From Candidatus Aenigmatarchaeota archaeon (lineage in GTDB: Archaea; Aenigmatarchaeota; Aenigmatarchaeia; Aenigmatarchaeales; SZUA-1535): a stretch of 12,607 nucleotides of DNA. A program made the position numbers and the translations under genes. Below are positions 2,999-3,312 of this stretch, one piece after another. The stretch is from positions 1 through 12,607 of the forward strand of contig JALSPV010000027.1 in the NCBI GenBank assembly GCA_026985775.1, read 5' to 3'. Numbering within the stretch: the stretch's first letter is position 1; each line of letters opens with the position of its first letter. The notes beneath the pieces are model-generated. The model was not told the DNA's origin, did no database searches, and worked only from the letters and a program-made list of their open reading frames with translations.

Positions 2999-3190
2999 AT
3001 GGTGAAGCCATCCACACTTTTAAAAATACTCGGAGTGTTTTTATCGGTGATTTTCATAGTTTTAGGTTGTTTACTTATTTTTCTTTCAAAAGACAGGATA
3101 TTCGGAATAGGATCTCCTTATAAAGAAATTTTGGGGATAGTTTTTATATTTCTTGGTGTACACAAATTTGCTAAAGATGTGGGGCCGTAG
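2999..3190 (+). CDS. Small two-helix membrane protein; function unknown
   Basis: This 63-residue protein consists of two hydrophobic helices (about residues 8-29 and 43-58) joined by a short loop, SKDRIFGIGSPYKE. The ATG at 2999 follows GGTGA (2990-2994) by four bases, and the site includes the stop of the phosphoesterase gene, so translation is coupled. Its final codons and TAG stop lie inside the first ten bases of the tRNA-Trp gene. The reading frame with its site looks genuine, but the size means confidence is moderate. The family is not recognised. Confidence 0.6.
   Translation: MVKPSTLLKILGVFLSVIFIVLGCLLIFLSKDRIFGIGSPYKEILGIVFIFLGVHKFAKDVGP
3142..3150 (+). promoter_or_regulatory. Possible TATA box for tRNA-Trp
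   Basis: TTTTATATT lies inside the small membrane-protein gene, centred about 35 bases upstream of the mature tRNA 5' end. Initiation 26 bases downstream would leave a short leader for RNase P to remove. The tRNA could instead be processed out of the upstream operon transcript. Confidence 0.35.
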
Positions 3191-3216
3191 TCTAGTGGCA
3201 GGACGGCCGGCTCCAG

Positions 3217-3258
3217 CGGTTGCTGGTGCTTTGAGCAAAGCGCGATGAAATCGGAGAC
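3217..3258 (+). other. tRNA-Trp intron 1, canonical 37/38 position
   Basis: The bulge-helix-bulge is textbook. CUCC of the anticodon loop (3211-3214) pairs with GGAG of the intron (3253-3256). The flanking three-base bulges are A-G|C (3215-3217) and A-C|A (3257-3259), each cut after the second base. The outer helix is the anticodon stem, and an inner helix pairs 3218-3221 with 3249-3252. The intron core folds into a 5-bp hairpin, GCTTT-GAGC-AAAGC (3228-3241). Introns at this site in tRNA-Trp are widespread in archaea; this one is short. Confidence 0.9.
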
Positions 3259-3279
3259 ACCGGTTGACCCCGGTTCGAA

Positions 3280-3293
3280 GCTTTTTGCAAAAA
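3280..3293 (+). other. tRNA-Trp intron 2, 14 nt in the T loop (59/60)
   Basis: Without this segment the T loop is the consensus UUCGAAU. The proposed bulges are A-A|G (3278-3280) and A-A|T (3292-3294). Between them UUCG (3274-3277) faces CAAA (3288-3291), giving three pairs and one C-A mismatch, so this is a relaxed bulge-helix-bulge. The inside is only a C-G pair closing five Us. A one-base shift (3281-3294) would leave UUCGAAG and is less consistent with the bulges. Most of the intron is the 12-base palindrome TTTTTGCAAAAA (3282-3293). Confidence 0.75.
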
Positions 3294-3312
3294 TCCGGGC
3301 GGCCCCACCATA

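Follow-up and report, generated by a model that had tools for sequence, protein, structure and literature searches.

The tRNA-Trp(CCA) gene at positions 3181-3310 (plus strand) of the window, by which we mean the whole 12,607-nucleotide stretch of DNA analysed here, encloses 21 nucleotides in its T arm where the standard loop has seven. Are the 14 additional nucleotides an intron, what would remove them, and do they stand alone? An earlier note had read them as an intron between positions 59 and 60 of the tRNA. We regard this as highly probable and count the insert among the many very short T-loop introns of its Aenigmatarchaeota-like lineage.

The tRNA-Trp gene and its two interruptions

The gene has three exons, all on the plus strand. 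Exon 1 (tRNA positions 1-37) spans 3181-3216, with the anticodon CCA at 3213-3215; exon 2 (positions 38-59) spans 3259-3279; and exon 3 (positions 60-76), which includes the encoded CCA end, spans 3294-3310. A canonical 42-nt intron at 37/38 (3217-3258), to which the earlier note made no reference, separates the first two exons. Its bulge-helix-bulge (BHB), formed by CUCC (3211-3214) and GGAG (3253-3256) with 3-nt bulges, is part of the predicted minimum-energy fold. The second interruption, GCTTTTTGCAAAAA (3280-3293), lies at 59/60. Removal of both inserts yields a complete tRNA, as expected of BHB-type introns: the acceptor, D, anticodon, and T stems all pair, with GGGGCCG (3181-3187) facing CGGCCCC followed by A and CCA (3300-3310) in the acceptor stem and CCCGG (3269-3273) facing CCGGG (3295-3299) in the T stem. 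The T loop becomes UUCGAAU, as the earlier note had proposed.

The tRNA-Trp gene of a genome of the same genus (G002) is interrupted alike. It shares 72 of 74 exon bases with the gene in the window, and its 41-nt intron at 37/38 aligns with the window's at 31 identical positions. The T-loop insert occupies the same site in both genes, is 33 nt long in G002 as compared to 14 nt in the window, and is hardly alignable between them. This same-genus gene and the genome-wide repetition of such inserts make a chance origin of the 14-nt segment very unlikely. A pseudogene or an assembly error might be suspected in a fragmented metagenome assembly of 135 contigs. However, all stems pair, searches of the assembly revealed no second tRNA-Trp, an independent same-genus assembly contains the same two interruptions, and the pattern recurs in dozens of genes; we give this explanation almost no weight. 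The Trp codon UGG is used by the window's proteins.

As expected for a doubly interrupted gene, ARAGORN reports no tRNA in the window, and the Rfam tRNA model scores the gene at 18.6 bits, under its cut-off of 29. A tmRNA was considered and rejected because the corresponding Rfam match (E 0.34) spans only 38 bases of the 5′ part of the tRNA. The idea of an isolated oddity was likewise rejected, given the interrupted same-genus gene and the 19 of 29 parsed tRNA genes of this genome in the same state.

A 63-aa membrane-protein-like open reading frame (2999-3190) ends in a TAG stop inside the tRNA-Trp gene (U8-A9-G10), and a similar-looking frame, compared by eye, also overlaps tRNA-Trp in G002. 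Neighboring genes between 1166 and 12228 encode PCNA, an RPA3-like OB protein, a metallophosphoesterase, a VWA/DUF58/MoxR cluster, EF-2, and an Lhr-type helicase.

Geometry of the putative T-loop splice sites

The exon strand UUCG (positions 54-57; 3274-3277, plus strand) faces CAAA (3288-3291) of the insert. The helix contains U3274-A3291, U3275-A3290, and G3277-C3288, with a mismatch of C3276 and A3289, and is followed by a single inner pair, C3281-G3287. The imperfect BHB described in the earlier note, with one C-A mismatch and one inner C-G pair, is thus present, and the motif belongs to the relaxed type, as opposed to the strict one with a 4-bp helix between two 3-nt bulges. The helix is flanked by a 5′ bulge, AA^G (3278-3280), and a 3′ bulge, AA^U (3292-3294), which from their geometry would place the splice sites after 3279 and after 3293; the 3-nt offset on the 3′ side is the strongest peak in each group of genomes examined below. 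Three registers (3278-3291, 3279-3292, and 3280-3293) give an identical spliced product, leaving the cut point ambiguous by two bases because of the flanking A's. Only in the 3280-3293 register do both cuts fall between the second and third bases of a 3-nt bulge. A stable fold, which supports rather than defines such a motif, is not predicted for the tRNA-Trp gene alone: the UUCG/CAAA helix is not the energy minimum, at -1.5 kcal/mol with all pairs to -2.8 kcal/mol with two pairs, and a competing fold, in which the loop forms a GC hairpin of 2 bp, reaches -10.0 kcal/mol.

T-loop inserts in the genome and its relatives

The window's assembly (G000) comprises 629 kb in 135 contigs and is 81% complete. 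At E up to 1, 24 loci match the Rfam tRNA model; all of them parse, and 14 have a T loop longer than seven bases. With loci added by a T-arm pattern, 29 tRNA genes were parsed, 19 interrupted and 10 intact. The inserts measure 11-41 nt, and their recurrence at the one site, 59/60, can be read directly from the sequence. The isotypes covered, taken from the parser's anticodons and in some cases by eye, are Cys, Asp, Glu, Phe, Gly, His, Ile, Lys, Leu, Met, Pro, Ser, Thr, Trp, and Arg. One of the 19, a tRNA-Arg(GCG) with a 41-nt insert, is a low-score reading that stands outside the helix statistics below. Two further candidates (L241 and L242) lie at a contig end or are unparsed. The parser requires a T stem, an acceptor stem, a D arm, and CCA; it gave 0 matches on both strands of 111,769 bases of reversed, uncomplemented DNA. 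Eighteen of the examined loci, three of them endonuclease (EndA) loci, gave no parsed tRNA, and four were read by eye. Counts from the CCA-based pattern are to be read as "at least" and mean little in families without an encoded CCA.

In tRNA-Arg(GCG) of G000 (L275) and G002 (L208), the D loop is interrupted by ~50 nt that include a conserved hairpin, AGCAAGATGACGA ... GTCCGAGGATTGCT; the insert may be box C/D-like, and Rfam gave no match for it. A search of nine loci against Rfam at E up to 1 found no known RNA inside the introns.

Related genomes carry the same kind of interruption. G002 has 23 parsed T-loop introns of 10-46 nt and one more read by eye (L208), as compared to 10 tRNA-model rows that are above cut-off and at least 70 nt long. 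Family f7 holds the shortest examples: the 16 parsed inserts of G008 consist of one of 9 nt, fourteen of 10 nt, and one of 29 nt, and five of the 10 in G010 are 10 nt long. The description of the 14-nt segment as about as short as an intron can be was therefore not quite right, given 11 nt in the same genome and 9-10 nt in relatives. Families f8, f13, f16, and f22 of the same class also yielded parsed T-loop introns, in which at least 3 of the 4 helix pairs form. G012 (family f2) has 43 tRNA matches, all end to end on the model and none T-interrupted. Among the six genomes in which the scan of fetched loci found tRNA-Trp, its T loop is interrupted in G000, G002, G008, and G010 and intact in G016 and G046. 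By eye, tRNA-Trp of family f7 (L221 in G008 and L247 in G010) seemingly has three inserts, in the D loop, at 37/38, and in the T loop. A CCA-free pattern searched across the phylum gave 135 matches in 57 of 156 genomes versus 37 for the reversed pattern, so single matches are not all real; the parser accepted 11 of the 20 stretches fetched from this search.

Might the inserts simply be kept, with the lineage using enlarged T loops in its mature tRNAs? The fourteen G008 inserts of exactly 10 nt (out of sixteen) look alike, as a retained structural element would. However, the inserts differ in length between isotypes and species, from 9 to 46 nt, tRNA-Trp alone varies between 14 and 33 nt within one genus, and intact UUCRAAU loops coexist with interrupted ones in the same genomes. 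The ends of the inserts also pair with the exon in the manner of a splicing motif. Retention is accordingly a poor fit, and we consider it very improbable.

Pairing and covariation with the exon

The splicing motif was examined in 72 distinct interrupted loops from ten genomes by scoring UUCR (54-57) against the four bases before the 3′ bulge at seven bulge sizes, with shuffled inserts as the control. At a 3-nt bulge, 36 loops form 4 of 4 pairs, 35 form 3 of 4, and one forms at most 2 of 4. This bulge size gives the top score in each of three groups: 144 of 168 pairs versus 69.2 (sd 5.7) for shuffled inserts in the 42 loops of G000-G002 (z 13.1), 76 of 88 versus 38.6 (sd 4.1) in the 22 loops of G008 and G010 (z 9.0), and 30 of 32 versus 13.7 (sd 2.5) in the 8 loops of five other genomes (z 6.4). 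Scores at neighboring bulge sizes likewise exceed chance, reaching z 5.9, which is probably due in part to the strands being runs of A or G.

Base 57 covaries with the insert, forming A-U in 26 loops, G-C in 17, and G-U in none (Fisher p 3.6e-7 for U against C, indicative only, as the rows are related). It faces a non-partner in 29 of the 72 loops (G-A 12, A-C 10, A-A 5, G-G 1, and A-G 1); the A-C and G-A cases indicate that relaxed pairing is common. For the 41 loops that end in TT, only a cut at 59/60 restores UUCRAAU, the sequence that 8 of the 10 intact G000 tRNAs have in this loop. Judged from these sequences, the pairing of the family is the BHB expected of archaeal introns. By geometry, the 10-nt introns would have room only for a bulge-helix-loop with a closing loop of about 6 bases; four loop, four helix, and two bulge bases would make up such an intron, near the smallest that the motif allows.

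The tRNA splicing endonuclease and ligase genes

The relaxed motif had led the earlier note to infer a splicing endonuclease of relaxed specificity and to suggest a check of the EndA type. G000 contains two EndA-like genes in tandem, their ends overlapping by a single base when the start is taken at the first ATG; the second gene is cut by the contig end. No fused EndA (alpha'2 or epsilon2) was found in this assembly. Among the best 80 of 320 EndA matches, the closest named relative is the Nanoarchaeota archaeon SZUA-1535 MAG (73% identity), followed mostly by Candidatus Aenigmatarchaeota MAGs, which points to an Aenigmatarchaeota-like DPANN lineage for the window. Elsewhere in the order, tandem pairs are found in G002-G008 and G010, one gene in G009, G011, G012, and G013, and two genes on separate contigs in G015; a profile search found no EndA in G001, G014, and G016.

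The two tandem genes differ in their catalytic residues. In all 8 tandem genomes aligned, the first subunit is without a His at position 125, and it lacks the catalytic His in 7 of 7 named tandem loci, partly from the same genomes as the 8; in G000 and G002 a His lies two residues earlier, and there the loss rests on the alignment. The second subunit keeps Tyr and His wherever it is complete and has a long Lys-rich loop of the KPLKRGPK...EHTKW kind before the catalytic His. With two different subunits, one without the catalytic His and one with it, the pair resembles an (alpha-beta)2 enzyme, consistent with the inferred relaxed specificity.

The catalytic triad Tyr-His-Lys is incomplete in the alpha-type subunit. 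Wherever a tandem genome has a complete second subunit, Ala takes the place of K156 (M. jannaschii numbering), in 7 of 7 cases; G000's own second subunit is cut off before this position. Across the class, Ala, Thr, or Ser replaces K156 in all 38 readable EndA rows from 31 loci, a set that includes 8 first subunits and leaves fused proteins of other families outside. In named EndA loci, 48 of 86 rows are without the catalytic Lys and 38 have it, the long protein L157 being left out. None of the 38 Lys-bearing records is titled Aenigm(at)archaeota, and the 41 Lys-less ones mostly are. The Lys-less loci are L028, L059-L088, and 41 of the named loci L089-L142. The activity of the aligned alpha-type EndAs of the class is thus not a given. 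A single Lys of this loop (Gly-x-Lys) is conserved without exception in the 52 sequences that the loop motif selected, and it is our guess that this residue might replace K156.

For ligation, RtcB (PF01139) is present in G002 and G008. It was not found in the 81% complete assembly of G000, probably owing to incompleteness.

Tandem endonuclease genes and intron number

Parsed T-loop cases in genomes with the tandem pair number 19 in G000, 23 in G002, 16 in G008, 10 in G010, 3 in G004, 2 in G006 (and one more without CCA), and 1 each in G003 and G005; the one stretch fetched from G007, which also has the pair, contained none. G009, with a single EndA gene, has one case, and the parser did not accept the pattern loci of G011 and G015. 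G001 and G014, in which no EndA was found, nevertheless give two parsed cases and three unparsed pattern matches, respectively. T-loop introns also occur in G079 and G080 of family f22, which have one alpha EndA, and in family f16, which has an epsilon-like EndA. The tandem pair is therefore not required for such introns.

Another nuclease, such as a canonical or epsilon-type EndA that escaped the search or some other RNase, might instead remove the introns, with the tandem pair having a different task. The 38 of 38 readable rows with Ala, Thr, or Ser in place of the catalytic Lys favor this explanation. Fused epsilon-like EndAs of ~400 aa occur in six genomes of families f10, f16, and f20 (L334-L339) and keep K156; in G119 (f10) and G127 (f20), they coexist with a separate Lys-less alpha EndA, and both EndA sizes occur by profile match in G019 and G032 (f10). 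In the window's order, however, only pairs or single genes were found and no fused epsilon-like EndA, and PF01974 at E 0.001 finds the tandem pair alone in G002 (92% complete) and G008. The second subunit's Tyr and His and the invariant loop Lys also argue for a splicing role. We consider another nuclease unlikely and favor cleavage by the tandem EndA pair.

A proposed course of splicing and signs of spread

We infer the following course for a T-loop intron processed by the tandem pair. In the precursor, the exon strand UUCR (54-57), near-identical in every tRNA, would pair with four bases by the 3′ end of the intron. This pairing would leave the 3′ site in a 3-nt bulge. The 5′ site would lie in another such bulge or, when the intron is of the shortest kind, in a small loop. 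The tRNA splicing endonuclease, probably a heteromer from the two adjacent genes, would make the two cuts, after which an RtcB-type ligase would join the exons and so restore UUCRAAU, the standard loop. Few stretches of tRNA are as uniform across isotypes as the T loop. Because the exon partner is near-invariant, an intron with a matching 3′ end would fit the T loop of almost any tRNA, which probably explains the repeated use of one site.

Several inserts may have spread between genes. The tRNA-Thr CGT and GGT genes have identical 39-nt T-loop inserts, pairs of tRNA-Pro have inserts 93% and 92% alike, and tRNA-Glu and tRNA-Gly of G010 have inserts 89% alike. The likenesses between isoacceptors would also be explained by gene conversion of 3′ halves. 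In G149 (f16), hairpin introns that resemble one another by eye interrupt the T loops of tRNA-Ser, -Lys, -Asp, and, with the weakest resemblance, -Phe; their 3′ ends are CGAA after UUCG and UGAA after UUCA.

Look-alike T-loop hairpin introns are also seen in different isotypes at L307-L318 (f16), several with GAAGCAGAT...ATCTGCTTC-type arms, and their 3′ ends match base 57.

Relation to known systems

T-loop introns at 59/60 are already known from other Archaea. The available text of a review (PMC4090602) lists non-canonical tRNA introns at many positions, including 59/60, in Crenarchaeota and Nanoarchaeota. As far as the available texts state, Thermoproteales average 0.84 introns per tRNA gene, with 71 in 46 genes of P. 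calidifontis (PMC8450103), and have accumulated and transposed introns (PMC8450103, PMC4033280). The present introns share with these their position, a BHB-type motif, the occurrence of similar introns in different tRNAs, and a partner endonuclease of relaxed type. The earlier note's comparison with Thermoproteales-type archaea and unusual lineages is therefore fair as a likeness; the lineage is an Aenigmatarchaeota-like DPANN one, and 19 of 29 genes, rather than one odd gene, are involved. Judged against the portions of those sources available, the introns described here differ in phylum, in the dominance of 59/60 (where the search was aimed; 37/38 and D-loop introns were also met), and in the 9-10 nt length of most parsed inserts in family f7. 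Atabeyarchaeia and Freyarchaeia (Asgard), with introns in 92-95% of tRNA genes (PMC11291895, available text), are alike in having most tRNA genes interrupted, often at non-canonical positions. They belong to another phylum, and the available text names no T-loop preference, intron length, or endonuclease.

Broad-specificity EndAs are of the (alpha-beta)2 and epsilon2 types, and a Lys in an extra loop matters in them, according to the available texts of PMC6379350, PMC12397907, and PMC4033280. The (alpha-beta)2 enzymes of Nanoarchaeum equitans (PDB 3IEY) and crenarchaea likewise combine a catalytic and a non-catalytic subunit, and an extended segment comparable to the one here precedes the catalytic His of N. 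equitans alpha. In contrast to these, both subunits here have N- and C-terminal domains, the genes are in tandem, and Ala stands at the catalytic Lys. The fused ~400-aa proteins of f10, f16, and f20 resemble epsilon2 of ARMAN-2 (PDB 4FZ2, 9W2K; PMC12397907, as far as its available text goes), a type of protein not found in the window's genome or order.

No paper on T-loop introns of Aenigmatarchaeota was found by title or abstract start in the literature searched, which covers few subscription journals, and this literature yielded no stated minimum length for archaeal tRNA introns; the available text of a paper on group I introns (PMC6125680) names Aenigmarchaeota once. Four features look new: the clade in which these introns occur, their concentration at a single site, their size of 9-10 nt, and the enzyme.

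Conclusions

Our analysis allows a tentative picture, possible though short of probable, of a one-site splicing economy in a DPANN phylum. Portable introns of as little as 9-10 nt, near the geometric minimum of an EndA substrate, would occupy the T loops of about two thirds of the tRNA genes in the richest genomes, and a Lys-less EndA would remove them, with an invariant, clade-specific loop Lys doing the task of the catalytic Lys. The ARAGORN miss and the sub-cut-off Rfam score imply that standard tools can miss such genes and that tRNA sets may be underestimated. This lineage would provide a DPANN counterpart to the intron burst of Thermoproteales, and the near-invariant exon partner would offer a simple reason for an intron hot spot. 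It would also supply a tRNA intron of very small size, and its EndA would serve as a natural test of whether the catalytic Lys is needed.
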